DNA of 64,000 nt from Rhizobium glycinendophyticum (GTDB lineage: Bacteria > Pseudomonadota > Alphaproteobacteria > Rhizobiales > Rhizobiaceae), in assembly GCF_006443685.1 (NCBI RefSeq), contig NZ_VFYP01000006.1, forward strand, positions 1 through 64,000, given 5' to 3'. Positions 27,641 through 46,582 of the stretch are shown one piece after another (position 1 is the stretch's first letter; the number at the start of each line of letters is the position of its first letter). The notes beneath the pieces are model-generated. The model did not search any database, had not been told where the DNA came from, and was given only the letters and a program-made list of their open reading frames with translations. The position numbers and the translations under genes were made by a program.

Positions 27641-28027
27641 CTGATCTAGCTCCCCCGTGTATCATCGCCAGAACACTATTCCACGTTGATCGCCGAGCCG
27701 CAAACACACAGTGAGTAGCAAGAAGTACGTTGCACAAATCATGACTGGTACAACACACCTAGGAACACTCGGCGCCTTGTATCCGGAACGCCCGGCCGGA
27801 GGCAGTCGGTCCTGCCTCTCCCTGCGGGTCGCTATACTGAGGCTCCTACGGCTACCTCTTTAACCGGTCCTTGGCGTGTCGAGAATTCCCGCTTTACCCT
27901 GTCTTCAAGAGACTTTGATCAGCATGTGGAAAGTCATGGTTTTGAATGGTGGCGATTGAGTGACATTGCTACCGAAGCGGGAAGGCAAGTGTTATGCTAT
28001 CCCCATGCCGGGACTCGGCGGGCTCGA
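27641..28027. other. Divergent intergenic region
   Basis: This 387-base stretch separates the HNH gene (minus) from the OLD gene (plus) and should hold both promoters. The 27926-28027 part is an open frame continuous with the OLD gene but without similarity to the family. No operator or repeat stands out. Confidence 0.4.
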
Positions 28028-30304
28028 ATGGGGGTGGGTGTGCGGATTTCGAAAATACAGGTCACCAATTTCCGTTTGCTTCACAAAGTGACGCTGCAAT
28101 TGGAGCCTACTACTACAGTCATCGTCGGCCGCAATAATTGCGGGAAGACCTCGCTCTCTGACGTCATCCGAAAGTTCCTAGAAGACAAGTCGGGATTTGA
28201 AATAGAAGACTTTTCCAGTGCTTGTTACGACCAGTTCTGCGCGGCACTTCGCGCATACAACAAGGGTGCGCCCGAACCAGAGATCCGCGCGCTCATCCCG
28301 TACCTCGAGCTGCGGATTCACGTCTTCTATGATCCAGGCATGCCCGCGTTTGGGGCTTTAGAAGAATTTGTGATAGACACCGACGATGCCTGCACGGAAG
28401 CGGTTGTGGTGTGTCGCCGCGCGCTAGGGGACGGGTCGATCAAAGCGCTCTTCGAAGGCCATGAGGGGCTGACGCTCGAAGGTGCGGACGAGAGTGTGTC
28501 GGAGGCGGATCGCCTAGTGTGGTTTCGAACGCTCGCCGAGCGAGTGCCGGAGCTGTTCGTCACTCAAATGTGGGCCGAAGACCCCAACGACGCTGCAAAC
28601 ACGCGAGAAGTCTCGCCGAAGGCTGTGAACGGCCTGCTATCACTTGGTTTCATTAATGCTCAGCGGGCAGTTGATGGCACAGGAGGGCGCGAGACGGATG
28701 TCCTCGCAAAGGTCTTGGAAGGCCTCTTCGCGAGCGCTTCGATTGCGACTGCTGACGGAGAGCAGCGCGACATCGCCGAAAGCCTGAAAAAGGCGGTCGA
28801 CCAGATCCAGAGCGACATTGATAGCGATTTCAAGAAGCAGCTCAGGAAGCTGATGCCAACCATTGCTGACTTCGGTTATCCGGGGCTCGACAGCGCTCCG
28901 CTCCTGCCTGAAACGAAGCTTGATGTCGGCAAGCTGCTCTCGAACTTCACCCGGGTTCAGTACGAAGGCTATTCCGGCGTGCAGCTCCCCGAGGCATACA
29001 ATGGCCTAGGCTTCCGCAATCTCCTCTACATCCTTCTCCGCATCGTCGGCTTCTATCGGAAGTACCGCGCCGAGCCGCAGGCGCCCGGCCTGCAGCTCAT
29101 CGTCATCGAAGAACCCGAGGCGCATCTGCACCCGCAAATGCAGGAGGTTTTTATTCGGCAATTGCCCGCGATTGTAGCCAAACTCTGCAAGGGCGAGGCG
29201 GACGAAGAACCAAAGCCATGGCCGGTACAGTTCATCGTCTCAACTCACTCGCCACACATCGCGAATGAGGCGAGCTTCGATACGATCCGCTACTTCGCCG
29301 TGACATCGAAGGGGCAGCCCATTGGCGTGAGGTGCACGGATGTGCGCGATCTTAGCACCGGCATAAAAGATCTGGGGGAGCCAGCCCAGAAATTCCTGCA
29401 CCAATACCTTACGCTGACGCGCTGCGATCTGTTCTTTGCGGATAAGGCGATCCTGATCGAAGGTACGACAGAGCGGCTCATGCTGCCCCGGATCATCCGC
29501 GCGCTGGACGCTGCGGACGAGGAGTTGAAGCTAACCAGCCAATACATTACGATCATGGAAGTCGGCGGCGCGTACGCGCATCTTTTCAAGCCGCTGCTCG
29601 AGTTCATCGGGCTGCGAAGCCTGATCGTGACTGACATCGATGCCGTAGAAAAAAAGCCAAGCGGCAAGTGGGAGGCCTGCCCCGTCCACGTCGGTAAGAC
29701 CACGAGCAACAGCTGCATCAAGCACTGGTTCGGTTCGGGTGGCGACGATGACGATGTGGGCGAGGAGGAGGAAGGAGCTGGCGACGTGTTGGTCCTCGTG
29801 CCGGCCGAGGGGGTGGACGAGACGGCAGCCGTGTCGGAGCAGCAAACTGGAACAGCGCCGACGAGCGCCCCGGACAGCACCCCCAAGGCGAAGAAGGCTC
29901 CTCTGGACCTTGCAGTCGTTCGCGTAGCAACGGATGCTGACAAGATTCGTGGAGCGGTTCGGTTGGCCTACCAAGTGCCGGAAGTCGAAGGCGGTCCCTG
30001 CGGTCGAACGTTCGAAGACGCCTTCATCCTCGCCAATCCGACGCTCTTCAATCTGGCGACCGGCACGCCTGACGTGATGGCCACGGCAGCGGAAACTGAG
30101 GCGAAGAAGCATAAGAAGTCCAAGTTCGCGCTCAGGTATGCCATCGATGTAACGAGCTGGACGACGCCGAAATATATCGCTGACGGGCTGCGCTGGCTCG
30201 CGGTCAATACGGTTGCGGAGGTAGATCCTGGCGTCGTGACGGCTGCGATGGCGCATGTCGAAGCTGCGGCCGCCAACGAAGGCGGCAGTGGAGCAGGTGC
30301 ATGA
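28028..30304 (+). CDS. OLD-family ATP-dependent endonuclease (GajA-like)
   Basis: About 758 residues from ATG 28028 (GTG 28040 is also plausible). The N-terminal ABC-type ATPase has RISKIQVTNFRLLHKV, Walker A VGRNNCGKTSL, and Walker B VIEEPEAHLHPQMQEVF followed by FIVSTHSPHIANEA. The C-terminal TOPRIM nuclease has ILIEGTTERLMLP (Glu) and IVTDIDAVEKKP (DxD). This is the class 2 OLD architecture. Between the TOPRIM strands lies an acidic, Pro/Ala-rich insert of about 60 residues (29735-29900) that looks disordered. The stop overlaps the helicase start (ATGA). With a UvrD-like partner this matches Gabija-type anti-phage systems, though it is longer than typical GajA. Confidence 0.85.
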   Translation: MGVGVRISKIQVTNFRLLHKVTLQLEPTTTVIVGRNNCGKTSLSDVIRKFLEDKSGFEIEDFSSACYDQFCAALRAYNKGAPEPEIRALIPYLELRIHVFYDPGMPAFGALEEFVIDTDDACTEAVVVCRRALGDGSIKALFEGHEGLTLEGADESVSEADRLVWFRTLAERVPELFVTQMWAEDPNDAANTREVSPKAVNGLLSLGFINAQRAVDGTGGRETDVLAKVLEGLFASASIATADGEQRDIAESLKKAVDQIQSDIDSDFKKQLRKLMPTIADFGYPGLDSAPLLPETKLDVGKLLSNFTRVQYEGYSGVQLPEAYNGLGFRNLLYILLRIVGFYRKYRAEPQAPGLQLIVIEEPEAHLHPQMQEVFIRQLPAIVAKLCKGEADEEPKPWPVQFIVSTHSPHIANEASFDTIRYFAVTSKGQPIGVRCTDVRDLSTGIKDLGEPAQKFLHQYLTLTRCDLFFADKAILIEGTTERLMLPRIIRALDAADEELKLTSQYITIMEVGGAYAHLFKPLLEFIGLRSLIVTDIDAVEKKPSGKWEACPVHVGKTTSNSCIKHWFGSGGDDDDVGEEEEGAGDVLVLVPAEGVDETAAVSEQQTGTAPTSAPDSTPKAKKAPLDLAVVRVATDADKIRGAVRLAYQVPEVEGGPCGRTFEDAFILANPTLFNLATGTPDVMATAAETEAKKHKKSKFALRYAIDVTSWTTPKYIADGLRWLAVNTVAEVDPGVVTAAMAHVEAAAANEGGSGAGA

Positions 30305-32085
30305 GCGAGGAGCTGCAACTCAATCCTGCCGAGGCCGCCGCTGCGGAAGCGTGGAGCAAGCTGCAATCGCACCTGAAAGACGGCTCCAGCTTCGTTTTCG
30401 AAGCCGGCGCAGGCGCAGGCAAAACCTACTCGTTGATTGCGGCCCTGCGTCATATTCTCGCCGACCGCGCACGGGAGTTAATCAGGCGTCATCAGCAGGT
30501 AGCCTGCATCACATACACGAACGTCGCGCGGGACATGATCATTGCCCAGACTGATGGTCATCCTGCGATCTACTGCGAGACAACCCACGCCTTTGCTTGG
30601 TTTCTCATTAGTGGATTTCAGAAGCGGCTCATTGAACTGGTGCCGACCCTAGCAGGCTGGCAGGGGCGCACGGATGAGCTCGCGAATGCTGCCGACGACA
30701 CCGCGCCATCGAATCCTGACGCGCCGCCTACGTCGGGGATTAATGCGGTTGGATATGCTCTCGGCCGGCGGTCCATCGAGGGTCGCACGGCCAAACTGCA
30801 CCACGATGATATATTCCCGCTCTTCATCGAGCTGATGAACTCGACGAAGTTTCGGAACGCACTGACGAGCCGTTTCCCGATCATCCTCGTTGACGAATAT
30901 CAGGACACGAATGAGGAGGTAGTTGCGGCTTTCAAAAAGCACTTCCTCGGGAAGCCAGGCGCACCGCAGTTCGGGTTCTTTGGCGATCACTGGCAGAAGA
31001 TTTACGGCGATGGCTGCGGTTCAATCCAACACGCGTCGCTGAAGCGTGTAGACAAAAAGGCGAACTTCCGCAGTGCAAAGCCGATCGTCGACTGTTTGAA
31101 CAAGATCAGGCCGGATCTGAAGCAAGCGCCTCGCGATCCAGACTCGACAGCAGTAGTCAGGCTGTTTCACACCAATGCTTGGATCGGGACGCGACGGACA
31201 GGCGCCCATTGGGGCGGCGACTTGCCGGAGCCAAAGGCGGCTGCCGCATTCCAAGCGACGAAAGAGGCGCTGATCGCGGAGGGGTGGGATTTTAAATCAG
31301 ACACCAAGGTCCTGATGCTCACGCACCGGGCGCTCGCAAACGAGTTAGGCTACGCATCGATGCGCGACGTGTTCCGTTTCAACGATTCCTTCGCTCGCAA
31401 GGGCAACGACGTGATCAAGTACTTCCACGAACACCTTGAGCCGGCGGCGAAGGCGTTCCTCGGAAAGCGCTTCGGGGCGATGTTTCATTATATCGACACC
31501 CAGCGCCCCGTGATGAAAGGTCCGGCTGACAAAGCGCGCTGGTCAACGGTGATGAGCCGCCTTTGCGAGCTTCGAGAGGCAGGGACAGTCGGCGACGTTA
31601 TCGTTCACCTTCAAAACTCTGGCCTGCCGCTTCTCGGCGAGGCAGTGAGCCGGATAGAAAACGACCTGGCGATGGCAAAGCAGGGTCAGGAGCCTTTGAG
31701 CGATCGCCTTCAAGAACTCGATAAGCTCCACGCAGTCCGGTATAGGGAGATCATCGCACTCTGCGAATATCTCGACGGGCACTCGCCCTTCGAGACCAAG
31801 CACGGCGTCAAGGGAGACCAGTTTGAGAACGTGCTGGTCGTGTTCGGCCGGGGCTGGTCGGATTACGACTTTAACGCCTTCCTAGAGATGGTGGGTGATC
31901 CGCACCGCATTGCACAGGAGCGTGATCGCTACGAGCGCTACCGGAACCTCTTCTACGTCGCGGTATCAAGGCCCAAGCGTCGGCTTGCCCTGCTGTTCAC
32001 CCAGCGCCTAACGCCGAGCGCCATGACGACGCTAACGAACTGGTTTCATGGTCATCCGATCCAGGATCTCGGTAGCACGCTCTGA
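30301..32085 (+). CDS. UvrD-family helicase (GajB-like)
   Basis: A 594-residue SF1 helicase. Walker A is AGAGAGKTYSLIAAL, Walker B ILVDEYQDTNEE, motif III FGDHWQKIYG, motif IV NFRSAKPIV, motif V KHGVKGDQFENVLVVFG and motif VI NLFYVAVSRPKRRL. All motifs seem intact. It overlaps the OLD-nuclease stop by four bases, so the two are co-translated. In Gabija, the helicase partner works with the OLD nuclease against phage DNA; the role here is inferred from that pairing. Confidence 0.87.
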   Translation: MSEELQLNPAEAAAAEAWSKLQSHLKDGSSFVFEAGAGAGKTYSLIAALRHILADRARELIRRHQQVACITYTNVARDMIIAQTDGHPAIYCETTHAFAWFLISGFQKRLIELVPTLAGWQGRTDELANAADDTAPSNPDAPPTSGINAVGYALGRRSIEGRTAKLHHDDIFPLFIELMNSTKFRNALTSRFPIILVDEYQDTNEEVVAAFKKHFLGKPGAPQFGFFGDHWQKIYGDGCGSIQHASLKRVDKKANFRSAKPIVDCLNKIRPDLKQAPRDPDSTAVVRLFHTNAWIGTRRTGAHWGGDLPEPKAAAAFQATKEALIAEGWDFKSDTKVLMLTHRALANELGYASMRDVFRFNDSFARKGNDVIKYFHEHLEPAAKAFLGKRFGAMFHYIDTQRPVMKGPADKARWSTVMSRLCELREAGTVGDVIVHLQNSGLPLLGEAVSRIENDLAMAKQGQEPLSDRLQELDKLHAVRYREIIALCEYLDGHSPFETKHGVKGDQFENVLVVFGRGWSDYDFNAFLEMVGDPHRIAQERDRYERYRNLFYVAVSRPKRRLALLFTQRLTPSAMTTLTNWFHGHPIQDLGSTL

Positions 32086-32477
32086 TGGGGTAGGTTGGTA
32101 CGACGGGGAAATGCGAGGTCATCGATGATGTCACCCCTTCGCGCAAGCCACGCACGCGACCTATCGCAGGAGGTCAATGGCCCGCTGCATATCAGCCTTT
32201 TTGAGTGATTGTTGGCAACGACTGCTTTTGTGCAGTCGCAACGCGAACTCGATGTCCGAAACGAAGGCGCAAAGCTGCCGTCGCCCGGGAAGGCATCTCG
32301 CGCCGTGCCGCCGTTCGGCCAACCCACTTCGCCTTGAAGGGATATGAACCTGCGACCCACTTGCTCGAACGGCTAAAATCTATCGTATCGTCAACAATTT
32401 GGCCTTCAGCATCTCGCAGAAAAGCAGCCAACACAATGCTACACCCGCAGCGTTTACACAGAGCAGATTGTAGGCTG
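32086..32477. other. Spacer between helicase and HD gene
   Basis: A minus-strand frame at 32192-32497 (about 101 codons, with a CKRCGC cysteine cluster) overlaps the HD gene 3' end by 20 bases and could be a small downstream gene, but it has no clear ribosome site. Part of the stretch (32259-32350) resembles 23980-24070. No terminator is obvious. Confidence 0.35.
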
Positions 32478-33086
32478 TCAAGAAGCAGCCATTTCAAACT
32501 CAGAAGGTGCCAGCTCCCAGAAGCGGTTCAGAAAATCCTTCGCAGCGATATACGGATCCTTTGGTTCAATGAGGAAGTCAAAGGGCACCGTTCTGTCGGA
32601 ATCCCCCCAAGGCCGTCCATCCCAATTCAATAGTTGCTCTCGCTCACTCGCCCAAAGCCGAACATCGTATGGTTTGATCGCATCGATGTCTTCGGCCGCC
32701 ACACGAAAGCGTCGTTCGATTGCAGCGGCACAGGACTTTTCGATTATTTTGTAACACGGTAGCATCGACTTAAGGGGCGAGGTCAAGTCTCCGCAAACGA
32801 CTTCTCCACTTTCGTGCATCAAAGCCGCGTAAGCCAGATCGGCCGGGACCAGCCTACTCAAGATTTCACAGTGCTGAGCCACAGAATAGAACACTCGCTG
32901 CCCTGTGCGTTTGTTCACACACTGGCCCGAAAAGCGGCCGGTGAATGCTAGGCCGTACGCGTAGTCCTCGATTGTCAGGCCATCCGCTTCGGGATGTGCG
33001 TAATCGAAATAGCTGCCGGATCCGAGCAGCATGGTCGGACCTGCCTCCCGCCGAATTGTGACCGAGGTCGTCGTATCGTCATTCAC
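32478..33086 (-). CDS. HD-superfamily phosphohydrolase (YfbR/DatZ-like)
   Basis: About 202 residues from GTG 33086, which has GGAGGAATTC at a normal distance; ATG 33116 lies upstream of that ribosome site and is less likely. The core reads FTGRFSGQCVNKRTGQRVFY, SVAQHCEILSRLVPADLAYA and ALMHESGEVVCGDLTSPLK. These match phage and bacterial HD nucleotidases acting on dNMP/dNTP, with the HD dyad replaced by His-Glu (H91-E92) and E95 and D100 kept. It is divergent from a PurZ-like gene with 96 bases between, the same pair of activities (HD dATPase plus PurZ) that aminoadenine phages use. Substrate is inference. Confidence 0.8.
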   Translation of the reverse strand: MNDDTTTSVTIRREAGPTMLLGSGSYFDYAHPEADGLTIEDYAYGLAFTGRFSGQCVNKRTGQRVFYSVAQHCEILSRLVPADLAYAALMHESGEVVCGDLTSPLKSMLPCYKIIEKSCAAAIERRFRVAAEDIDAIKPYDVRLWASEREQLLNWDGRPWGDSDRTVPFDFLIEPKDPYIAAKDFLNRFWELAPSEFEMAAS

Positions 33087-33182
33087 TTTTTGAATTCCTC
33101 CGCTACCGCATTGCACGAGCTTCGCCTTTCGAAGCTAAGGCAAGTGTTGTAGTGTTCGAACAAATCAGGAGAGGTCATTAGC

Positions 33183-34223
33183 ATGCCTGTGTCAGTTGTT
33201 GTAGGCGGCCAATTTGGTTCCGAGGGGAAAGGCAAAGTTGCCCAATTCATTGTTCGCAGCCAATCCGCTGCGGCAGTTGTTCGCGTCGGTGGCCCCAATT
33301 CCGGCCATACAGCAATGGACTGCGCGGGTCATTTGGTTACGCTTCGCCAACTACCCGCTGCGGCGATCTCGACTGAAGCTATGATCTTTCTACCGGCCGG
33401 AAGTCTCATCGACACAGCGCTCTTGCTGAAGGAGATCCAACTTCTGGGTGTCTCACCGCGTAGGTTGCGGATTGATGCCAACGCCTCACTTGTCACAGAA
33501 CAACACAAACAGGTCGAGCGCGACGAGGCGCTGGTTGAGACCATTGGCTCTACAGCTTCTGGCACAGGCGCCTCCTTACGTGAGCGCCTGTCGCGTGCCA
33601 AATTTCATCGATTGGCAAGGCATGAGCCGGAACTACAGGCATACATCGAGGAAAACACTGCGGCTTCCCTCCGTAATCTTTTAGCAGCGGGAGAACGGGT
33701 GGTTTTGGAGGGAACGCAAGGGTTCGGGCTTTCCTTGTGGCGGACACGTGACTTCCCGTTCGCAACCAGCCGGGATACGAGCGCGGCCGCATTCGTTTCC
33801 GAGGCAGGCTTAGCGCCACACGACGTGGATGACGTAGTGATGACACTGCGGAGTTTTCCTATTCGCGTCGGAGGTAACTCCGGCCCTCTACCCAACGAGA
33901 TTGATTGGCCAATTCTTGCAAAGGAGGCGGAGCTTGATCCGGATTATCGCGAGTTGACCTCGGCAACGCATCGAGTGAGACGGATAGCCCGATTTGATGA
34001 GCAAGTTGTCAAGGACGCGATTATCAGCAACCGACCGCATCGCATTTTTATGAACCATATGGACTATGTTGATCCAAGATGGCGCAGCGCTGGTACGAGT
34101 GAACGCTCGACACGTTTCGTCGAGGATATTGAGCGACGCATTGGTCAATCGATTGATTACCTGGGATACGGGCCTGATGTGACCAAAAGAAGTGACCACG
34201 TTCGACTTAAGCGAAGCGCCTAA
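33183..34223 (+). CDS. PurZ-like adenylosuccinate synthetase homologue
   Basis: A 346-residue member of the PurA superfamily, shorter than PurA (about 430). The P-loop-like start is VVVGGQFGSEGKGK: the PurA catalytic Asp13 is Ser13 here, the substitution that marks PurZ, the phage enzyme that joins aspartate to dGMP on the way to 2-aminoadenine. His42 (GGPNSGHT) is kept, and STASGTGAS, LEGTQGFGLSL and FPIRVGGNSGPLP align with PurA/PurZ motifs. AGGAGAGG precedes the ATG. The stop overlaps the next ATG by one base (TAATG). No phage structural genes are nearby. PurZ identity is well supported by Ser13 but needs a tree. Confidence 0.82.
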   Translation: MPVSVVVGGQFGSEGKGKVAQFIVRSQSAAAVVRVGGPNSGHTAMDCAGHLVTLRQLPAAAISTEAMIFLPAGSLIDTALLLKEIQLLGVSPRRLRIDANASLVTEQHKQVERDEALVETIGSTASGTGASLRERLSRAKFHRLARHEPELQAYIEENTAASLRNLLAAGERVVLEGTQGFGLSLWRTRDFPFATSRDTSAAAFVSEAGLAPHDVDDVVMTLRSFPIRVGGNSGPLPNEIDWPILAKEAELDPDYRELTSATHRVRRIARFDEQVVKDAIISNRPHRIFMNHMDYVDPRWRSAGTSERSTRFVEDIERRIGQSIDYLGYGPDVTKRSDHVRLKRSA

Positions 34224-35245
34224 TGGAAGTTTCTCTTAAAGAATTTCATCGAGAGGTTCGCGCACTCGAGTTGTTGGTCGCGGGCGGAGGTGCTGAACTA
34301 CCGGAGCGAGTTGAGTCGCTGAAGACGTTCGATCCTTATCCAGATATTCCTCCGGCCTTGCTCAATGCCGGGCACTTGGCGACTTACGGCATCGTCGCGG
34401 GTATGATCCAGCCGTTCGATGCTACACGCTTAGAAAAGCCGGCGACCTATCTGGTTGCCGCGAAGGGCCCATGTAGATATAGAGATGAGCAGGGCAATAT
34501 TGAACGCTTTGTGCTGTCGAATGATCCAAATGATCGAGACAAGGAGGTTGAAGAAGTTCGAGACCATGTTCGAATTGCGCCGAACTCTGTTTGTTTCGTT
34601 ACCCTCGAACCAGAGTTTCATATGCCGGCTTACATCGGCGCCCGGTTTAATTTGATGATTCGCGATGTCTATCGCGGCCTCCTTGTCGGTACAGGGCCCT
34701 TGGTAGATCCCGGTTTTTCGGGCAGGCTCTCAATCCCGATACACAACTTCACGACCCGCGAATACTTCATCCGCGCGGGTGAGGGTCTAGTGTATTTTGA
34801 GTTTACGAAGCTCAGTTGGCTGAACGATCCGCTGCAGGCGCCACCCGCTTGGTTGCCTCCGAAGATCGACAACCAACCTCCTTTTCCAGGATCGAAAAAT
34901 CGACGGAAGAGCATTGATCACTACCTCGATGAAGCGACTGGGGGCGGCCCCCCCCAAAACGCAATTGGAGATGAGATCGCCAAGCTAAGGAAGTACGCCG
35001 ACGACGCAAAGCGCCTTCTTCGGATCTACTCTGTAGCAGGTGTCGCCGCTGCAGTGAGTCTTCTCTATTCAGGCTGGTCACTTTATAGCGCGGCGCAGCA
35101 GTTTGTGCAGTCTGCTCAAACGGAGATGCGGGAGCGAGCCGAAAGTGCTGATGATGCAATCATAGAACTGCGCAACAATCTAGCTGACGCGCAAAAACGC
35201 ATAGCACAGCTGGAGAACGTTCCTCAGCCAGCGCCGAGAAGATAG
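34223..35245 (+). CDS. dCTP deaminase/dUTPase-fold protein with membrane anchor
   Basis: A 340-residue protein. Residues 120-200 form a dCTP deaminase/dUTPase-like trimeric barrel: PAYIGARFNLMIRDVYRGLL, GTGPLVDPGFSGRLSIPI, HNFTTREYFIRAGEGLVYFE. DPGFSG (162-167) is kept, but the R-S-S triad is RFN and the catalytic glutamate of LELFN-type dCTP deaminases is Ile (IPIHN), so catalysis as deaminase looks lost. A membrane segment (269-291) and a coiled coil (about 296-332) follow. It is coupled to the PurZ-like gene. I infer a nucleotide-sensing, membrane-tethered component. Confidence 0.72.
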   Translation: MEVSLKEFHREVRALELLVAGGGAELPERVESLKTFDPYPDIPPALLNAGHLATYGIVAGMIQPFDATRLEKPATYLVAAKGPCRYRDEQGNIERFVLSNDPNDRDKEVEEVRDHVRIAPNSVCFVTLEPEFHMPAYIGARFNLMIRDVYRGLLVGTGPLVDPGFSGRLSIPIHNFTTREYFIRAGEGLVYFEFTKLSWLNDPLQAPPAWLPPKIDNQPPFPGSKNRRKSIDHYLDEATGGGPPQNAIGDEIAKLRKYADDAKRLLRIYSVAGVAAAVSLLYSGWSLYSAAQQFVQSAQTEMRERAESADDAIIELRNNLADAQKRIAQLENVPQPAPRR

Positions 35246-35261
35246 CAGTTTGTGGAACGGC

Positions 35262-35561
35262 TTATGGGGCCTTCGGTACCGAGACTTGCGCGGCATCATT
35301 CCGAGCGCTTCTCATTTGTTGAGAAGCGAAAACAGTGACGAGCAGAAAGCTTCCGAATCCAATGAAATAAACTGCGAAAAGGCCGAGCGCAGCACGTCCG
35401 AGCATCGACTGCCAAGTGATGCGTGGAGAGGAAAGACCGGTCATGGAGCGTGTAGGGCACACAAGTCTCCAGCCAAACCATAGGCATAGGCCAGCAAACG
35501 TTACGACGAGGAGCCGCTCCAGTGAATCGACGAGTTCGGCGAGGCTATGGTGGTCCAGCAT
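35262..35561 (-). CDS. Small membrane protein
   Basis: A 99-residue protein with GAGGG before the ATG. Two hydrophobic stretches (LLVVTFAGLCLWFGWRLV and AALGLFAVYFIGFGSFLLVT) suggest two membrane helices. It converges on the PurZ operon from the right. Not recognised as a family; it may belong to the PurZ module or be an independent small gene. Confidence 0.5.
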   Translation of the reverse strand: MLDHHSLAELVDSLERLLVVTFAGLCLWFGWRLVCPTRSMTGLSSPRITWQSMLGRAALGLFAVYFIGFGSFLLVTVFASQQMRSARNDAAQVSVPKAP

Positions 35562-35913
35562 GCAAATCCCTCGTCAAGATACGGGGGCACGATGGCTCCG
35601 CATACTTGCAAACTTTTCGCATAAAAGTGCGTGAGAGCTCTTAAACGTTGCAAAGATTAATTTCAACGCGGCGATAGCGCTGGCCAGCAGTTTCTGTTGG
35701 CACAGTAAACGGGTGCTATCACAAGTCTATGCCCTAAGATTCTTCGCGTCGGTACACCGTAGATCCACAAAGAGCCACCTGAGAAATCCAGTTCGACACA
35801 ATCGCCGAGCGAGAGGAATCAGATTACTCTCGGAAAATCCAGCATCCGATTCGCTTTATTTTAATCGGATGGGGTTCCGCTTTTCTCTGCGCCGAACGAT
35901 GAGTGAATGTTGA
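35562..35913. other. Intergenic region before the sigma-like gene
   Basis: This 352-base, relatively AT-rich stretch separates the small membrane protein from the sigma-like gene and probably holds the promoter of the latter. A 66-codon plus frame ends exactly before the sigma-like ATG but lacks a ribosome site and pattern. No terminator or repeat stands out. Confidence 0.4.
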
Positions 35914-37245: not shown

Positions 37246-40200
37246 ATGGAGAATATCAATTCCGTCCGACGCGCCGCGAACCAATTAAGACGCAAGGTCG
37301 ACCCGGGGCTCAAACAGCTCGCTGCAGGCGAGGTCATACGGCTCGCGCTTGACGATCAAAGTTTGGCGGTTGAGAAGGTAGGACCAAATGACACGAACCT
37401 CATGGGCGGTATCGGCGTCCTGAAGCGTCGCTATCTGGCGATATATGTGGCAAACGATCTCGACCAAAGTTTCGAGGCCGAGGTCATCGCCCACGAGATC
37501 GCGCATTTCGTTATACATCTCGAGGCCGAGATCAAAATTGAGCGCAGCTACAGCGCGCCAGGCGCCGGCGACCCTTTGCAACGTGTCGAAGCCTATAGCA
37601 AAAAGGAACGGCGCGAAGCCCAGGCAAACGCCTTCGCCCGCGAGTTCCTTCTACCCCGTGCGCTCGCGAGACGGCTTTTTCACGAGGGGAAACGCGCCAG
37701 GGATATCGCCACGAGCCTCGGGATAAGACTGGAAACGGTCTATCAACAGCTGGCCGATTCCCTGCTGCTGCCGGAGGCCGCCGAGAAACCACCGAAAGCG
37801 CCACGACCTCCGGAACCGCTTGACCCCTCCCAGGAGGAGGCAGCCCATCACCTTGGATCGCCTTTCCTCCTCGAGGCCGGACCCGGAACCGGGAAAACCA
37901 AAACCATGGTCGAGCGCATCGTATGGCTGCTTGCACACGAACACGCTAAGGCCGATGACATACTGGCGCTGACATTTTCCAACAAAGCGGCGGAGGAGCT
38001 TGCCGAGCGGGTCGAGCATGCGGTCGGGGCAAGCGCGGTCAATATCTGGAGTGGAACATTTCATTCATTCGGGCTTGAACTCCTGCGCAAACACCACATC
38101 CGATTCAACCTTCCGCCCGATCCTAAACTGGTCGACACGAGCGAGGCGATTAACCTGCTGGAAGAGACACTTCCGGCCCTGCCGATCGTCCACATGCAGA
38201 ACCTGTTCGACCCTGCATCGGCGCTGAGAGACATCCTGCGCTCGATTTCAAGGGCGAAGGATGAACTGATTGGGCCGGACGAATACGAAGTCCTGGCCGA
38301 AAACATGATGCGCGAGGCGGACCGCGCCGATGCCGATGCCGTCAAGGCGGCTGCCAAGTGTTGCGAAGTCGCCCTTGTTTACAAGCACTACCAGGCGATA
38401 CTCGATTCGATGCGGGCGGTTGACTACGGTGATCTCATCCGACTTCCCGCCGTCAGGATGAGGACCGACGATGATTTCCGTCGTGAGCTTGCGGACAGGT
38501 ACAAGTGGATTCATGTCGACGAATACCAGGATATCAACCGCGCAAGTGCCATGATGGTGAAGGGCATCGTCGGTGACGGAAACCGCCTCTGGGTCGTCGG
38601 AGACGCCAGGCAGTCGATCTACAGGTTTCGTGGGGCGTCGAGCCGTAACATGGCGCGCTTCCGCAGGGACTATCCCAGCGGCGAACTGGGGCAGTTGAAG
38701 GTAAACTACCGATCCACCAATCCGATCCTCTCCCAGTTTAAAGCTTTCGGAAATAGGATGATCGTGTCTTCCTACTCCCTCCCGCTCGACATAAGCGCCA
38801 AGAGAACCGAGTTAGGCGGAACGCCGGAAGTTTTCGTCGGAACCGACCCCCAGGACGAGATCGATGTGCTCGCCGGAAATATACGCGAACTTGAAAAGGC
38901 GGGCGTTTCCCTGAGAAGTCAGGCAATAATTGCGCGTACCAACGGCATACTGGCCGAGATGGCAGCGGAACTCGAGGCTCGAGGCGTGCCCGTGCTATAC
39001 TTGGGTCCGCTTTTCGAGCGACCCGAAGTGCGAGACATGCTGTCACTGCTGTCGCTGATCGTCCAGGATGGCTCTACGTTGTTCAGGGTGGGTACCTTCC
39101 CCGAGTACGGCATCGCGCCGCTTGAGCTGTCGCGCGTAATCGAGGAAGCCAAGTCTCGTCAGGTTTCGGTTAAGGCGCTCTTGGACCAGATATCAACGCT
39201 TGCTTGTGTAACCCCCGACACCATCCGCCGCCTTGCTCTCCTGGCAAGCCACCTGGACGGGTTCGGACACGGCACGACGCCTTGGCTTGCCTTGATGGAA
39301 TACCTGTTTGATCGAAGCGACTACGTCAGAACGGTGCTAGCGGGCCAAAATCCGTCTGACGATCTTCGCCGCGTCGCGGTCCGCCAGCTGATCGAGGCCC
39401 TCAGGACCATGCCGCTTGTAGGCGGTAAGCTGCCAATCGTCCGCGGCCTCGAACGTGTCAGGCATCTCGTGCTGCTGTCGGACGATCGGGAACTGCGGCG
39501 TCTGCCGGACGAAATGAATGACGTGGATGGCGTCCAGTTGATGACGATCCACGCCAGCAAAGGTCTGGAATTCGAGGCCGTGCACCTGCCCCGGCTTAAA
39601 CGAGGGTCTGTCCCCGCACCCAACCGTGCCGACGCATGTCCGCCACCTGTCGGTATGGTAACGGAGAACCCTGAAACGAACGCTCACGATGCCGAGGAGG
39701 AGTGCTTGTTTTTCGTGGCGATGTCGCGCGCGAAGTCACATCTCAAGCTCTATCGCCCAGCTAGGTCGGGAGGCAAAACTTCAAATGCCTCGATATTTGT
39801 AGAGGGACTATCGATCCAGAGCGGAAGGCAGGTCGCGCCGGTAGCCCGTCTCTTCCCGGCTCCGACGCAGGAACCGATCAACGATTTCGGCTTTCCCGAG
39901 GGATTGAGTGCCGCAGACATCGAGTCTTTCGACCAGTGCGGAAGGCGATTCTTTTATGACAAGGTCGCCAAGCTCGGCGGCTCGGCCGAGAGGTCCGCCT
40001 ATTTGCAGGCTCATGGATGTATTCTCGCGGTCGTCGCAGCGGCCCGCTCCGCCGAAATTCCATTGACGATCAACGCTATGCGCGGGGTCTTCGAGACCGC
40101 TTGGAATTCGACGAAACTTGTCGGTCATCCTTTCGAGAAACAGTATCGAGCCCTTGTCGACAGGATGATGGGCAATCTTCTTCCGGTTCTTGCCTCCGTC

Positions 40201-40593
40201 TCGAAGGCGACGCCGTTTGGGCTCGAGTTGGCCAACCGTCAGATAGCCATCGCTCCGGATTTCGTAAAGGGAGACGCGGGCTCGCGCGAGTTCCTGACAG
40301 TCCGGTCAGGTAAGCGTTCCATGACGGAGCAAGATAAGATCGCACACACGCTCCTGCTCGAAGCGGCGCGCGTCAATTTCGGCCACAGCTTCTCCTTCGA
40401 GACCTTCCACGTGATGGACGGCAACGCAGGACAGATCGAACAGACAGCGGCCAAGCGTGCGAACCGTATTGCGACGGCGCAAGACGCGATCCGGTCCATC
40501 GAAGACGGTCTTTTCCCGGCCAAGAGAAGTGACTTTCTGTGCCCCCGCTGCAGGCACTTCTTCATCTGTCCAGCCCCTCAGGCAAGTTCTTAA
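37246..40593 (+). CDS. ImmA/IrrE peptidase-UvrD helicase-Fe-S fusion
   Basis: About 1115 residues from ATG 37246 (MENINSVRRAAN); a longer frame to 37051 lies inside the upstream gene. Order: ImmA/IrrE zinc peptidase (HEIAHFVIHLE near residue 83); UvrD/Rep helicase with Walker A AGPGTGKTKT, Walker B HVDEYQDINRA, YRSTNPI, LMTIHASKGLEFEAVHL and CLFFVAMSRAKSHL; and a C-terminal domain with cysteines in FDQCGRRFFY and CPRCRHFFIC, the pattern of an AddB/Cas4-type Fe-S nuclease domain whose D-E-K active residues I cannot find. The peptidase-helicase combination is unusual. It starts four bases after the preceding stop. Confidence 0.82.
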   Translation: MENINSVRRAANQLRRKVDPGLKQLAAGEVIRLALDDQSLAVEKVGPNDTNLMGGIGVLKRRYLAIYVANDLDQSFEAEVIAHEIAHFVIHLEAEIKIERSYSAPGAGDPLQRVEAYSKKERREAQANAFAREFLLPRALARRLFHEGKRARDIATSLGIRLETVYQQLADSLLLPEAAEKPPKAPRPPEPLDPSQEEAAHHLGSPFLLEAGPGTGKTKTMVERIVWLLAHEHAKADDILALTFSNKAAEELAERVEHAVGASAVNIWSGTFHSFGLELLRKHHIRFNLPPDPKLVDTSEAINLLEETLPALPIVHMQNLFDPASALRDILRSISRAKDELIGPDEYEVLAENMMREADRADADAVKAAAKCCEVALVYKHYQAILDSMRAVDYGDLIRLPAVRMRTDDDFRRELADRYKWIHVDEYQDINRASAMMVKGIVGDGNRLWVVGDARQSIYRFRGASSRNMARFRRDYPSGELGQLKVNYRSTNPILSQFKAFGNRMIVSSYSLPLDISAKRTELGGTPEVFVGTDPQDEIDVLAGNIRELEKAGVSLRSQAIIARTNGILAEMAAELEARGVPVLYLGPLFERPEVRDMLSLLSLIVQDGSTLFRVGTFPEYGIAPLELSRVIEEAKSRQVSVKALLDQISTLACVTPDTIRRLALLASHLDGFGHGTTPWLALMEYLFDRSDYVRTVLAGQNPSDDLRRVAVRQLIEALRTMPLVGGKLPIVRGLERVRHLVLLSDDRELRRLPDEMNDVDGVQLMTIHASKGLEFEAVHLPRLKRGSVPAPNRADACPPPVGMVTENPETNAHDAEEECLFFVAMSRAKSHLKLYRPARSGGKTSNASIFVEGLSIQSGRQVAPVARLFPAPTQEPINDFGFPEGLSAADIESFDQCGRRFFYDKVAKLGGSAERSAYLQAHGCILAVVAAARSAEIPLTINAMRGVFETAWNSTKLVGHPFEKQYRALVDRMMGNLLPVLASVSKATPFGLELANRQIAIAPDFVKGDAGSREFLTVRSGKRSMTEQDKIAHTLLLEAARVNFGHSFSFETFHVMDGNAGQIEQTAAKRANRIATAQDAIRSIEDGLFPAKRSDFLCPRCRHFFICPAPQASS

Positions 40594-40691: not shown

Positions 40692-41435
40692 ATGTCTCTT
40701 ATCGAAAACCCCGACATCGACGATGTCGCACTCGCCGTGCAGGAAGATCGCCCCCTGCGCCCCGGTCGCTACCGCGTTTCGCTCGCCGTCGACAGCGTCG
40801 ATTTCCACCCGCTTATCCTCGATGATCCGGTTCCCCTCGGTCGCCAGATCCTCAAGAAGGCCGGCATCAACGACATCGATGGTCACTCACTGTTTGTGAT
40901 AACCACCGAAGGCGACTTCGAAGACGTCCGGGCGGATGAGGAGGTCGATCTGCGCGATCGGGCCGCCTTCCGCTTCATCGCTTTCAGCACCGATCCGCTC
41001 TACCGCGTCAAGCTCAACGAGGCGCGCATCGTCTGGGGCCGTTCTCTCATCCCTGAAGCGGTGCTCCGTGCGCTCGCCGGCATCAACGACGATGAAGCGG
41101 TCTTCCTGGAAGTGCGTGGCGGCAAGGACAAGCTGATCGAACGGGGCACCGACGTGGATCTCGCCGCAGACGGAGTTGAGAAATTCATCACGGCGCCCAA
41201 CAAGGTCACCTACACTTTCTTCGTCAACGGCAAGCTCTATGAGACCGATAAGAAGAAGCTTACCGGCGCGCAGATCAAGTCGATGGTGCCCGACTGGGAT
41301 CCGCAGCATGACCTTTCTTTGGAGGGTGAGGGCGACGATCCGGACCGCATCATTGCCGATGACGAGGTAGTTAGCCTCGTCCCGAAGCATGGTGTCCGCC
41401 GCTTCTCGTCAGTCCCTAAGGCGAACTTCGGCTGA
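40692..41435 (+). CDS. Multi-ubiquitin-like protein (three beta-grasp domains)
   Basis: A 247-residue protein of the bacterial multiubiquitin family. Three beta-grasp repeats are visible: about 20-90 (RYRVSLAVDSVDFHPLILDD), 95-165 (LYRVKLNEARIVWG) and 170-240 (TYTFFVNGKLYETDKKKL). The chain ends KANFG, so the C-terminal glycine is exposed for adenylation without processing. AGGAAA precedes the ATG. The stop overlaps the E2 start (TGATG). With the next three genes it forms a ubiquitin-like conjugation operon. Confidence 0.87.
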   Translation: MSLIENPDIDDVALAVQEDRPLRPGRYRVSLAVDSVDFHPLILDDPVPLGRQILKKAGINDIDGHSLFVITTEGDFEDVRADEEVDLRDRAAFRFIAFSTDPLYRVKLNEARIVWGRSLIPEAVLRALAGINDDEAVFLEVRGGKDKLIERGTDVDLAADGVEKFITAPNKVTYTFFVNGKLYETDKKKLTGAQIKSMVPDWDPQHDLSLEGEGDDPDRIIADDEVVSLVPKHGVRRFSSVPKANFG

Positions 41436-41818
41436 TGCCCGGCGTTCTCGACATGCAGCTGGACCAGCTGCGGGAGCGGTTCGGCGACGTTCAGACCCGG
41501 CAGCTGCCGAGCGGCACCACGCTCGTCACGGTGCCTGGCGTCCGCCTGCCGGAGGGGTGGTCGAAGTCGTCGACCACCATCCGCTTCATCGTCCCGCCCG
41601 GATATCCCTTTGCGCAGCTCGACTGCTTCTGGGCGGATTCTGATCTTCTTCTCGCGCATGGAGGCCCGCCGCAGAACTCCGCGCCAACTCCCGTACCGGA
41701 GACCGTCGAGCCAGCACTGTGGTTCTCGTGGCATCTCACAGGACCGTGGAACCCTAATCGCGACACGCTGTCGACTTGGATGAACGTAATTATTGATCGT
41801 ATGAGGCAGGTCCAATGA
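41435..41818 (+). CDS. E2-like protein (prokaryotic E2 family E type)
   Basis: A 127-residue protein. The pattern PEGWSKSSTTIRFIVPPGYP followed by FWADSD, HGGPP and WFSWHLTGPWNPNRDTL matches bacterial E2 family E proteins. Cys64 (QLDCFW) is the only cysteine; whether it acts like the E2 catalytic cysteine cannot be told from sequence. It overlaps both neighbours (TGATG at its start, ATGA at its end), as part of the coupled operon. Confidence 0.82.
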   Translation: MPGVLDMQLDQLRERFGDVQTRQLPSGTTLVTVPGVRLPEGWSKSSTTIRFIVPPGYPFAQLDCFWADSDLLLAHGGPPQNSAPTPVPETVEPALWFSWHLTGPWNPNRDTLSTWMNVIIDRMRQVQ

Positions 41819-43161
41819 GCCGTGTTCGCTTTCCTTCGCCTCTCTATTCCAACCTGGCGTCGACGTTGCTCAACGCCAATGGTCTGGAAAGCTGCGCAAT
41901 CGCATATGCCCATCATGATGCACGTAGCGACACGTGGGTTGTCGCCGACGCCAGCATCGTGCCGGAAGACGCATATGAGCACCGCACCTGCGTATCTGCT
42001 GTCCTGAAATCGTCTTTCCTCATCGACGTTGCAAATCGCAGCCGGGTCACCGGCATGGCCGTTATCTCGATCCATACGCATCCCGCCAGCTCTGACCATC
42101 CGCATTTCTCGCCCATCGACGATGCGGGCGAGACCGAACTGAATTCGTATTTTGTTCGGCGAGCGGCACCAATGCCACATGTCTCGTTGGTGATCGGGCC
42201 ACATGGATGCCGCGCCCGCCCCCTCGGAAAGGAAGATGAGATCGACGTATGGGAAGTGGGGGATAGGCTCTTGCTCCATTCGCCCATGCAGGACGTCTCC
42301 GATCAGGAACGCGACGATCGGCAGGTCAGGGCATTCGGAGCCCCAGGGCAACGGCTGCTGCGCCGCCTCCACTTCGGAGTGGTCGGAGCGGGTGGGACCG
42401 GATCGCTCGAGTGCCAGCAACTCGCCCATCTCGGGGCGACTCAGGTCACGGTGATCGATCCCGACCTGGTCGAGGAGACCAACCTGAACCGTCTCGTCGG
42501 CTCCGTTCCCTCGGACGTTGGCCAGCCGAAGGTCGAGGTCGCGGCCAGGATGATCCGCGCGATTAACCTTGATGCCACGGTGACCCCGCTTCAGGCTGAC
42601 ATAGTCGATGAGGAGGTAGCGAAGCTCATCAGTACCTTCGATTTCGTCCTTTTGTGCACCGACTCTCACGCAAGCCGGGCGGTCGTCAATCAAGCCGCCT
42701 ATCAGTATCTGGTGCCGGTTATCGATATGGGGGTGAGCATCACTGCGTCGAACGGAGCCGTCAGCCACATCACTGGACGCGTGCAGATGCTCGCCCCTGG
42801 CCTTCCCTGCCTGACTTGCTCAGGCGCGCTCGACAGCGAGGCAATCCGGCGCGAAATGCTGTCACCAGAACAACGCGCGGCGGACCCATATGTCCAAGGC
42901 ATCCACGAACCCCAACCCGCGGTGCTGTCCATCAACTCGACCGTAAGCTCACTTGCAATCACCATGTTGCTTGGAGCTGTCACACCGGTTCCGATCAAGC
43001 CTCGATATCAGGTTTATGATGGAAATCGGGGCCGAGTAAAGGAGATGGCAGTCGCCGTGCAGCCGAACTGTGTGGTTTGCTCACCTATGGGCGCGCTTGC
43101 CAAGGGCCCAACCTGGCATTTGCCGGTCCGGCCAAAACGCCAAGATGGGAGCGACAAATGA
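41815..43161 (+). CDS. JAB deubiquitinase-E1 (ThiF) fusion
   Basis: A 448-residue fusion. The N-terminal JAB/MPN domain has E25 and the JAMM motif HTHPASSDHPHFSPIDD (H87, H89, S99, D102), intact for a zinc isopeptidase. The C-terminal ThiF/E1 domain has GAGGTGS (191-197), VIDPDLVEETNLNR and CxxC pairs (C332/C335 and near 423/426), probably zinc ligands and a thioester cysteine. It could both activate the ubiquitin-like protein and remove it. It overlaps the E2 and DUF6527 genes by four bases each. Confidence 0.87.
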   Translation: MSRVRFPSPLYSNLASTLLNANGLESCAIAYAHHDARSDTWVVADASIVPEDAYEHRTCVSAVLKSSFLIDVANRSRVTGMAVISIHTHPASSDHPHFSPIDDAGETELNSYFVRRAAPMPHVSLVIGPHGCRARPLGKEDEIDVWEVGDRLLLHSPMQDVSDQERDDRQVRAFGAPGQRLLRRLHFGVVGAGGTGSLECQQLAHLGATQVTVIDPDLVEETNLNRLVGSVPSDVGQPKVEVAARMIRAINLDATVTPLQADIVDEEVAKLISTFDFVLLCTDSHASRAVVNQAAYQYLVPVIDMGVSITASNGAVSHITGRVQMLAPGLPCLTCSGALDSEAIRREMLSPEQRAADPYVQGIHEPQPAVLSINSTVSSLAITMLLGAVTPVPIKPRYQVYDGNRGRVKEMAVAVQPNCVVCSPMGALAKGPTWHLPVRPKRQDGSDK

Positions 43162-44911: not shown

Positions 44912-46576
44912 ATGAGGCCAGATGTGCCAAATCCATTTCAATATTGCCGATCGACACCTGCCCGTGAATCTACTGAAGCCGATTGGGCGGCTGCGCGCAG
45001 GCTCGCGGACCAACTGGATCGCATCCTGGAAGGATACGGTTCGCGCAAATCGGCCATTGACCGCGCTGCTGCGGAATTGAGGCTGTCGTCCCGACAAATA
45101 TACAATCTCTTGGCCCGATATCGAACCGACAGAACGGTGACCGCGCTCCTGCCGCGCACATCCGGCCCCCGGCGAAAGCGGATCTCGGCGGACGTCGAAG
45201 CTATCGTTGCGAGAACTTTGCAGGAGCAGTGGCTCACCCTCGAAGCGCCGCCATTGGCTCCGGTCGTCGCCGAAATCCGCGCGCGCTGCGAGGAGGCAGG
45301 CCTGTCCCAGCCATCGTATGTCACTGTCGCGCGCAGGATCCCTGAATTGTTTTCAGCCGAAACGATCGCGAGGAAGCGCTCGGCCAATCCGAAACATTTG
45401 TTGCGGCTGAAGCCACGGCCTGGATACATCCATGCAACAAACCCATTAGATGTCTGCCAGATCGACCACACGCCGACGGATGTAAATTTCGTCGAGGTCA
45501 TCGATGGGGCCGGGGTTTTCGTCGGGCGGGCGTATCTGACACTGGTGACCGACGTTGCCACCCGTGCCATCCTGGGCTTTTGCCTATCGCTGGAAAAACC
45601 CTCGGTGCTGTCGGTGGCGCTTTGCCTTGCGCAGGCGATTTGCCCCAAGGATGGCTGGCTCGCATCGCGCGATATTCGCCATGACTGGCCAATGTATGGA
45701 AGGCCCCGGCTGCTTGTGGCCGACTCGGCGATGGAGTTCAAGGGGCATGCTTTTCAGCGAGGCTGCGACGAATACGGGATCCGCATTCGATATCGGGATC
45801 GCGCTCGGGTTCACCACGGCGGCGTCGTGGAACGGCTTCTAGGAAAGCTGAACGGTGTGTTGGCAACATTACCGGGCACCACGAAACGTTCCGTGGCAGC
45901 TCGTGACGAATATCCTGCCGAACACCGTGCCCGCCTCTCATTTTCCGAATTGGAGCGGTGCGTGGTCCTGGCGATCCTGGATCATAATCGCCATCAAAAT
46001 CCGAAAACGCTGAACATTCCCGTCAAGGAGTGGGAGCAGCGTGCGTCAGGCCACCCTCATATCATCGACGACCAGCACCATGTGCTGCTCTCCTTCTTGC
46101 CGGCCGGTCAAAGGCAATTGTCGCCTCAAGGGATCAGTCTGTTCGCGCTGCACTACTATTCGAGTTGGATTGGCAGGCTGGTGCCGGAACGAGATCGGCT
46201 CAGTAAGCTCGAAGTGCGATACGATCCCCGCAATATAAGCCAGATCTTTGTTCGCGACCCCGAAACACAAGTGTTTCGGGCAGTGGAGCGGCGAGATGGC
46301 GTGGTCGCCAGTATCACACTGTGGGAGCATCGGGCCGAAAGGGCACGGAGGCGCGACTTGAGCGGCCGATCCAGCGTCGAGATCGTCTCGCTGCGCCGGG
46401 AAATGACCACGATTGCAAACACCGCCGGGCTTTCAAAGCGCCGGCTGCGCAATGCGGCGCGGGGCATTTATGCCGCGCCCGCGGAAAAACGAATGGCTGA
46501 AACATCGGAATCAGTTCCGATACAAACGATCCAGCAAGAGCGGCCAAAGGCCCGACTACAGGTCGAAGACTGGTAG
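44912..46576 (+). CDS. DDE transposase (TniA/TnsB-like)
   Basis: A 554-residue transposase. N-terminal helix-turn-helix (AAAELRLSSRQIYNLLARYR), then an RNase H-type catalytic core with DVCQIDHTPTD (first D), LLVADSAMEFKG (second D) and GGVVERLLGKL (E), and a C-terminal beta-barrel/tail. The catalytic triad is intact. It lies 55 bases from the RHE_PE00001 gene and is followed by tniB. The C-terminal tail should contact the TniB ATPase. Confidence 0.9.
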   Translation: MRPDVPNPFQYCRSTPARESTEADWAAARRLADQLDRILEGYGSRKSAIDRAAAELRLSSRQIYNLLARYRTDRTVTALLPRTSGPRRKRISADVEAIVARTLQEQWLTLEAPPLAPVVAEIRARCEEAGLSQPSYVTVARRIPELFSAETIARKRSANPKHLLRLKPRPGYIHATNPLDVCQIDHTPTDVNFVEVIDGAGVFVGRAYLTLVTDVATRAILGFCLSLEKPSVLSVALCLAQAICPKDGWLASRDIRHDWPMYGRPRLLVADSAMEFKGHAFQRGCDEYGIRIRYRDRARVHHGGVVERLLGKLNGVLATLPGTTKRSVAARDEYPAEHRARLSFSELERCVVLAILDHNRHQNPKTLNIPVKEWEQRASGHPHIIDDQHHVLLSFLPAGQRQLSPQGISLFALHYYSSWIGRLVPERDRLSKLEVRYDPRNISQIFVRDPETQVFRAVERRDGVVASITLWEHRAERARRRDLSGRSSVEIVSLRREMTTIANTAGLSKRRLRNAARGIYAAPAEKRMAETSESVPIQTIQQERPKARLQVEDW

Positions 46577-46582
46577 TCGGCT

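Follow-up and report, generated by a model that had tools for sequence, protein, structure and literature searches.

A bacterial cassette of a PurZ-like synthetase and a membrane-anchored DCD-fold protein with a putative role in nucleotide-based defence

The window analysed here, a stretch of 64,000 nucleotides from Rhizobium glycinendophyticum (contig NZ_VFYP01000006.1), carries a gene for a PurZ-like protein directly followed by one for a membrane protein with a degenerate DCD/dUTPase fold. These two genes, usually together with a gene for a nuclease/DUF429/kinase protein (NUC), form a conserved unit that is widespread but sporadic in bacteria. The reading we prefer, with a probability of roughly 45%, is that of a cellular cassette which makes a 2-aminoadenine-type deoxynucleotide from dGMP and in which the membrane DCD protein acts as dNTP sensor or effector, or as hydrolase, in a nucleotide-based defence or stress response. 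The phage survey PMC12884076 treats PurZ as an enzyme of phages, with four relatives from archaea branching basally. No description of a bacterial PurZ-DCD cassette was found in the open-licence literature, judged mostly from titles and the first lines of abstracts and with preprints outside its scope, which does not prove novelty. If the preferred reading is true, a cell-encoded PurZ cassette found across numerous phyla would point to a dedicated ability of bacteria to produce 2-aminoadenine nucleotides, the cassette would be a cellular source for the 2-aminoadenine pathway of phages, and the membrane-anchored DCD-fold protein would be a new kind of nucleotide receptor.

Layout, transfer and surroundings of the locus

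The features of the locus are as follows:

32478..33086, minus strand: HD phosphohydrolase-fold protein; the open reading frame runs to 33116 (32478-33116), with the likely start near 33086
33087..33182, no strand: stretch separating the divergently transcribed HD and purZ genes; candidate promoter region, from the gene positions
33183..34223, plus strand: PurZ-like succinoaminodeoxyadenylate synthetase homologue, 346 aa, with Ser13 (PHROG 1211, trees, signature residues)
34223..35245, plus strand: degenerate DCD/dUTPase-fold membrane protein, 340 aa (alignment, AlphaFold model/Foldseek, hydropathy)
35262..35561, minus strand: hydrophobic 99-aa open reading frame, the fourth of the transferable block; conserved on plasmids, of no known family
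32500..35716, no strand: transferable unit, the block common to the window and Sinorhizobium medicae plasmids (88% identity, in one piece)

The HD, Ser13 PurZ-like and degenerate DCD membrane proteins described in the initial annotation are thus all encoded where it had placed them, and the translational coupling it proposed for PurZ and DCD agrees with a one-base overlap, the stop of the first gene and the ATG of the second sharing one base (TAATG). Between the window and the Sinorhizobium plasmid copy the dN/dS ratios are 0.16 (HD), 0.07 (PurZ) and 0.06 (DCD); the three genes are therefore not chance reading frames and are under strong purifying selection. The 99-aa frame is kept on three plasmids with 82-83% identity and a dN/dS of 0.30, and had no match in Pfam.

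When the window was compared with the 17 kb retrieved from pMl5, the block 32500..35716 was all that matched at the DNA level. The cassette was found on plasmids predicted to be conjugative, and among 60 genomes of the genus PurZ was found in one, that of the window. As claimed at the outset, the genes lie between other defence genes, with Gabija directly upstream and a multiubiquitin/ThiF-JAB set downstream. Gabija itself was rejected as a part of the module, since the plasmid block begins at 32500 and the block shared with Agrobacterium salinitolerans at 32333, both past the end of gajB at 32085.

In other genomes the surroundings are at most suggestive of defence. Around the cassettes 159 PADLOC families were matched (124 proteins, 16 loci) versus 36 in control regions (128 of 174 proteins, 12 of 16 regions), with 25 of the 159 and 25 of the 36 families listed. 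Because these neighbour scans give families and not their members, loci with restriction-modification or integrase genes were counted with profiles of our own: HsdM was found in 11, HsdS in 9, HsdR in 5 and an integrase in 13 of the 71 cassette loci, each being absent from the 16 controls, a comparison that is biased because the profiles were built from cassette loci, and in which the controls are few (224 kb versus 1.17 Mb). The HD, PurZ and DCD proteins of the window matched no PADLOC family at E 0.001.

Conserved partners and viral relatives

In 69 of the 71 genome loci found with a DCD profile a PurZ gene lies near the DCD gene, which makes the DCD protein a real partner of PurZ; in the family search, three of the six DCD matches were weak, and their 3.3-kb loci contained no PurZ. 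A NUC protein, usually composed of a nuclease, a DUF429-like part and a nucleotide kinase, is encoded upstream in 62/71 loci, the DUF429 label being weak (of five NUC proteins, a single one scores above the cut-off). A dNK-type kinase is present in 20/71 loci, and in 25/71 a protein, X2, with a weak match to RlmJ (E 4.7e-4, TM 0.50; the X2 model was built without the partial X2 of locus L061). The kinase part of all five NUC proteins scanned matches the PADLOC model of the defence dCTPase (1.9e-6 to 6.4e-13), and both dNK-type kinases scanned match VakA of PADLOC (3.8e-7 and 2.2e-4). Four viral loci (three distinct sequences) and two bacterial genomes encode a fusion of the NUC kinase domain with PurZ. 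In the genome of the window a search run without a positive control gave no NUC match.

The HD protein is a different case. It matches PHROG 318 (deoxyribonucleoside 5'-monophosphate phosphatase) with E 7.6e-56, and its close homologues are 202-203 aa long and start at or near the equivalent of 33086. A divergent HD gene lies near DCD/PurZ in only 2/71 loci besides the window, one of the two being nearly identical to it; the gene is a local variant of the cassette, and HD-PurZ was rejected as the core pairing. Of 50 HD homologues, 14 are on contigs that seem to hold PurZ or DCD matches as well; 12 of these contigs were paired by their identical lengths, and the other two are those of L004 and L006. 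The metal motif is H82, H101-E102, D151 (numbered from 33116), H-E replacing H-D (Glu in 40 and Asp in 7 of 47 aligned sequences). The similarity to five phage HD proteins encoded beside purZ is weak, with matches of 26-34 residues (at best 32% over 34, E 9e-4), and the protein does not show the kinship with DatZ that an HD metal motif together with close sequence similarity would indicate. Thus, of the pairing proposed in the initial annotation after the model of datZ-purZ, the divergent HD gene stands and its central role does not; likewise, the suggested three-gene order is kept across genomes for PurZ and DCD, and not for HD.

The nuclease, HD and kinase partners would also fit nucleotide house-cleaning or pool control in DNA repair, in which dNTPs are hydrolysed and salvaged after DNA damage with no role in defence; the phage dUTPase-like DutZ hydrolyses dATP and dGTP. 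We consider this unlikely, although it survives best among the alternatives: cleaning needs no PurZ step, leaves the membrane anchor unexplained and does not go well with a sporadic, plasmid-borne distribution.

Viral relatives bear on another alternative, a remnant or borrowed 2-aminoadenine phage set with a product that either is meant for phage DNA or plays no part in the cell. A PurZ profile found 176 relatives in viral contigs, of which 80 were kept (a scan with a single PurZ sequence gave none). In the second of the two trees described below, some viral PurZ (L142, L144, L146, L148) branch among the cellular ones, the phage records retrieved include PurZ with HD or dUTPase-fold neighbours, and on one viral contig (L163) PurZ lies some 5 kb from an HD relative (35% over 89 residues). 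The DCD membrane protein, however, was found in none of the viral material: its profile gave 49 pattern matches and no relative in viral contigs, tblastn gave no relative in phage records, and the fetched flanks of the 80 viral PurZ loci do not encode it. Strong purifying selection and the 13 phyla covered by the tree rows also speak against phage-derived cargo, which we regard as rather improbable, a little more so than house-cleaning.

The PurZ-like protein

In the motif GGQFGSEGKGK of the protein, residue 13 (codon 33219-33221) is Ser. The protein matches PHROG 1211 (aminoadenylosuccinate synthetase) with E 6.8e-66. It scores 224.3 bits against the curated PurZ model NF038379 and so misses the cut-off of 300, which is why we call it PurZ-like rather than PurZ. 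Residue 13 is Ser in 65, Gly in 4 and Asp in none of 69 family proteins (the PurZ of 68 of the 69 loci plus the window; that of L013, missed by the gene caller, was dropped) and Ser in 114, Gly in 6 and Asp in none of 120 homologues. The Gly13 variants might be inactive enzymes.

Two trees were built, the first with 63 rows and the second with 66. In both, the window protein and phage PurZ/PurZ0 form one clade with 100/100 support, and PurA, represented by bacterial sequences and a single archaeal one, lies outside. The first tree contained 42 of the 69 family proteins and the second 23; the second also included 24 of the 80 viral loci, and a bacterial fusion row (L141) whose motif was not clean was left out of it. 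Neither tree includes the four Ser/Gly sequences that PMC12884076 reports from archaea. The genomes belonging to 28 of the 71 loci were searched for PurA, and 27 of them encode it separately (26 full-length, one in two pieces; none in the remaining one); the PurA sequence was extracted for 22 of 26 loci, nine entering the first tree and six the second. The window genome, too, encodes a separate full PurA. The claim that this Ser13 protein is PurZ-like is supported by the trees and the signature residues, and an ordinary PurA was rejected on its placement in the trees.

In the PurZ-like alignment K16, H42, R266 and R267, active-site residues of PurA, are invariant. Also conserved are S123, T259, and V229 together with the insertion behind it, which extends to W242. 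Asp294, at the site of the phosphate-donor base, is shared with PurA and PurZ0 and differs from six phage PurZ. According to PMC8342488 the dGMP pocket of S-2L PurZ is lined or shaped by S23, S131, V241, an insertion to W250, and T273; S13, S123, V229, the insertion to W242 and T259 of the window protein correspond to these by our own reading, the S-2L sequence being outside the alignment.

The loss of the catalytic Asp of PurA, the Gly13 variants and the near-obligate pairing with DCD might also be taken to mean that the Ser/Gly13 protein synthesizes nothing and binds dGMP/GTP as a switch gating the membrane DCD protein. Against this stand the invariant active-site residues, the kinase fusions, which suggest a product, and the activity of the Ser-bearing S-2L phage PurZ (PMC8342488); we think it improbable, slightly more so than phage cargo. 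Least probable by far is a paralogue of PurA, a short adenylosuccinate synthetase for purine salvage, which would agree with the best PDB sequence match (the short archaeal PurA 2d7u/5k7x) and with a score against the adenylosuccinate synthetase model NF003295 (252 bits) above that of the PurZ model, but the score is under the NF003295 cut-off of 368, the trees leave this archaeal PurA outside, Asp13 is absent from both sets, the genomes already own a PurA and the distribution is sporadic.

The DCD protein, a possible mechanism and known systems

The DCD protein consists of a DCD/dUTPase-fold domain (about residues 1-200) and a C-terminal helix (about 247-331) with a predicted membrane segment and coiled coil. 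It matches Pfam PF22769 with E 0.0002, below the family cut-off, and the best Foldseek match of its AlphaFold model is 2qlp (E 6.6e-9); a viral-structure search with the model returned dUTPase and dCTP deaminase folds in general. The fold is as the initial annotation had it, and the membrane stretch of the window protein, which the annotation called a membrane helix, is borderline, with a hydropathy of 1.56 (at least 1.6 in 70 of the 75 DCD copies scored, window included).

The DPGF/DPGW motif of dCTP deaminases is retained. At the deaminase position, that of the catalytic Glu (E138) in a strand of E. coli Dcd, Pro172 is invariant in 33/33 DCD proteins, with no Glu there or beside it. In the alignment of the window protein with the host's own DCD the Glu position is ambiguous by one column; no Glu was found at residues 166 to 179. 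An active dCTP deaminase was therefore rejected. It should be noted that 9ln0, titled a dUTPase, has Met at the deaminase Glu position.

The preferred reading takes the three genes of the window as what would be the Rhizobiaceae version of the bacterial PurZ-DCD cassette, and starts from what the sequences show directly, namely gene content, conservation, phylogeny, signature residues and mobility, together with the predicted fold; for substrate, product, sensing, membrane action and defence we infer the following. PurZ would convert dGMP and aspartate to succino-2-aminodeoxyadenylate, from which PurB of the host would form dZMP, the 2-aminoadenine deoxynucleotide. In many members the NUC kinase domain or the dNK-type kinase would phosphorylate dZMP to the di- and triphosphate; the window version, which has the HD phosphohydrolase, would use host kinases. 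The DCD protein, having lost the deaminase glutamate and kept the conserved core and the DPGF aspartate, would bind and perhaps hydrolyse a deoxynucleotide at the membrane, acting as membrane-anchored sensor or effector. The trigger would be a change of the dNMP/dNTP pool during infection, the most likely role being nucleotide-based defence or stress response; a defence role is plausible. A more specific version, a bacterial 2-aminoadenine immune system in which dGMP rises upon infection or DNA breakdown and is converted by PurZ and its kinases to a dZ nucleotide, which a trimeric membrane DCD protein detects and answers by acting on the membrane, the 2-aminoadenine DNA metabolism of phages having been built from this cellular enzyme, is speculative, with odds well below even.

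Nucleotide-based defence systems include the defence dCTP deaminase and prokaryotic viperin with its kinase. The cassette resembles them in that its kinase parts score against the PADLOC dCTPase and VakA models, and differs in that PurZ and DCD have no PADLOC match and that its synthetic step is PurZ. With dCTP deaminases and bifunctional dCTP deaminase-dUTPases the DCD protein shares the fold and the DPGF/DPGW motif; unlike them, it lacks the deaminase Glu and has an additional membrane and coiled-coil tail. With phage PurZ/PurZ0 the window protein shares the clade, Ser13, and the residues and insertion of the dGMP pocket, whereas it is cell-encoded, is coupled to a membrane DCD protein, a partner that turned up beside none of the phage PurZ examined, keeps the Asp294 of PurA/PurZ0, in contrast to six phage PurZ, and scores below the NF038379 cut-off. 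According to PMC12884076 and PMC8342488, the nucleotide-pool partners of phage purZ are DutZ and DatZ, so that there, too, a dUTPase-superfamily or HD protein adjoins purZ. Unlike DutZ, the cassette protein belongs to the DCD branch of the superfamily, is membrane anchored and has no phage relative by tblastn; unlike DatZ, the HD protein of the window is an HE variant remote from the five phage HD proteins.

Gene content and PurZ kinship

The module lies within 3.2 kb of the window and consists of three genes, for an HD-fold protein, a PurZ-like protein and a predicted membrane protein with a degenerate dCTP-deaminase fold (DCD), with a one-base overlap between the PurZ stop and the DCD start:

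Genes of the module and the ORF that follows
32478–33086 or 33116, minus strand: HD-fold protein, divergent from the PurZ gene (PHROG 318, 7.6e-56)
33183–34223, plus strand: PurZ-like protein, 346 residues (PHROG 1211, 6.8e-66)
34223–35245, plus strand: DCD-fold protein, 340 residues (DCD family match, sub-threshold)
35262–35561, minus strand: hydrophobic ORF, 99 residues, next after the DCD gene

The same genome separately encodes a full-length PurA (adenylosuccinate synthetase), an ordinary DCD of its own and one more match to the same model. That the PurZ-like protein belongs with the phage succinoaminodeoxyadenylate synthetase PurZ and not with PurA, as the initial annotation had proposed, was borne out by trees of 63 and 66 rows: in both, cassette PurZ, phage PurZ and its relative PurZ0 form a single clade with full support, outside which stand bacterial PurA and one archaeal PurA. 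Because support inside the clade is low and several viral contigs sit among cellular sequences, the trees give no direction of transfer. Support is good both for the genes and for the kinship of the PurZ-like protein with PurZ; the biochemical product predicted for the PurZ-like enzyme is likely.

Residue 13 is serine in 65 of the 69 family proteins (glycine in 4) and in 114 of 120 homologues (glycine in 6). Among 82 viral and fusion sequences 81 have serine, and one has no clean motif. A 2026 phage survey gives serine in 147/147 phage sequences and serine or glycine in four archaeal ones (PMC12884076). Judged by the S-2L PurZ pocket residues named in PMC8342488, S13, S123, V229, the insertion to W242 and T259 appear to be kept in the window, and Asp294, at the donor-base site, is shared with PurA and PurZ0. 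An unannotated, unverified faecal phage contig (L115) carries an ordinary Asp-type PurA, grouped in the tree with bacterial PurA.

Neighbours and viral relatives of the PurZ-DCD pair

Searching a collection with one genome per species with a DCD profile from 33 proteins yielded 71 loci. The three-gene order suggested at first holds across genomes in part: PurZ-DCD is kept in 69 of the 71 (L019 and L041, the latter on a 3.5 kb contig, have no PurZ-like gene in the fetched flanks), but HD adjoins PurZ, besides the window, in 2 of the 71 only, L006 and the Agrobacterium salinitolerans locus L004. The family sequences that entered the first tree represent 13 named phyla.

Neighbour clustering placed NUC, a third cassette protein, upstream of PurZ in 62/71 loci, mostly with 450–920 residues (three have <450). 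All five NUC proteins searched for Pfam domains contain a P-loop kinase, three the RNase_H_2 exonuclease domain and three DUF429 (above cut-off in one); the NUC of L011 has neither RNase_H_2 nor the PHP and helix-hairpin-helix domains that replace the RNase H-type exonuclease in L045. NUC is longer in L045, L047 and L056 (913–917 residues), and L056 resembles L045 by eye. A dNK-type kinase is found in 20/71 loci, and X2, a further neighbour family with a weak RlmJ-like fold, in 25/71.

The PurZ profile detected 176 relatives on viral contigs, of which 80 loci were kept for study. A DCD protein was found in the flanks of 0/80, and an HD relative in one (L163), where it lies ~5 kb from PurZ on the opposite strand, has the usual H-D motif and matches the window HD protein at 35% over 89 residues. 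A kinase domain that matches the NUC profile in its kinase region is fused to PurZ in viral L167, L174, L175 and L186 (L167 and L175 have identical PurZ) and in bacterial L139 and L141. These fusions link kinase and PurZ in a single pathway, as would fit a kinase that phosphorylates what PurZ makes. Neither bacterial fusion has a DCD protein within the 4 kb fetched; that of L139 adjoins a DUF7002 gene and that of L141 is preceded by a second kinase. The two may represent a separate PurZ system.

A transferable block and its surroundings

Window 32500–35716, with the HD, PurZ and DCD genes and the 99-aa ORF, is one continuous 88% DNA match to the predicted conjugative Sinorhizobium medicae plasmid pMl5, of which the 17 kb fetched gave no other DNA match to the window. 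Comparing the window and plasmid copies gives dN/dS values of 0.16 (HD), 0.07 (PurZ), 0.06 (DCD) and 0.30 (99-aa ORF). In A. salinitolerans, 96.6% similarity starts at window 32333, past gajB. PurZ was found at E 1e-60 in 1/60 genus genomes, the window's own, and a DCD match in 6/394 family genomes, its own counted, three of the six being weak and without PurZ within their short loci. At E 1e-75 the PurZ profile matched 2/385 class and 3/398 phylum genomes, own counted in both; the others are one further cassette (L140) and two kinase-PurZ fusions.

Genes around the module
27926–32085: Gabija pair gajA (7.1e-263) and gajB (1.1e-231), upstream
37246–40593: one protein with M78 peptidase (IrrE-like), UvrD helicase and PD-(D/E)XK (at cut-off)
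40692–43161: multiubiquitin protein, 127-aa small protein and ThiF-type protein with JAB-like N-terminus, downstream
44912–48315: Mu-type transposase, then two ORFs

Gabija lies just upstream of the block, not in it, and its stretch was unmatched in the 8 kb fetched upstream of L004. A UvrD-type helicase is near the module in both the window and the Sinorhizobium plasmid (35% over 1061 residues), the plasmid relative lying outside the shared DNA block. The genes at 40692–43161 are a ubiquitin-like conjugation set, and the two ORFs after the transposase resemble its ATPase and TniQ partners.

PADLOC gave no match for the HD, PurZ or DCD protein; the NUC and dNK-type kinase parts resemble its dCTPase and VakA models, and control regions also give PADLOC matches. 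HsdM is near 11/71 and integrases near 13/71 loci as against 0/16 control regions, the controls being few and the profiles drawn from cassette loci. In favour of defence are the sporadic, plasmid-borne occurrence, the Gabija pair beside the module here, the resemblance of the kinase parts to PADLOC models and the HsdM and integrase neighbours; the small number of controls, the origin of the profiles, the PADLOC matches of the control regions and the negative PADLOC result for the three proteins count against it. The defence and sensor-effector roles are inferred.

The DCD protein and known systems

The AlphaFold model of the DCD protein (mean pLDDT 84.7) is closest to 2qlp, the dCTP deaminase-dUTPase of Mycobacterium tuberculosis (E 6.6e-9). 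Pro172, in the region of the deaminase glutamate, is invariant, and so is Asp162 of the DPGF motif (33 rows). Further on, a hydrophobic stretch has a mean hydropathy of at least 1.6 in 70/75 copies (1.56 in the window copy).

No paper describing such a PurZ-DCD cassette was found in a partial literature search. The novelty would lie in the gene set as a system and not in the PurZ enzyme, a cellular protein related to an enzyme already known from phages. For the DCD protein there is a possible parallel in phage DutZ, which hydrolyses dATP and dGTP and which shares with it the dUTPase superfamily.
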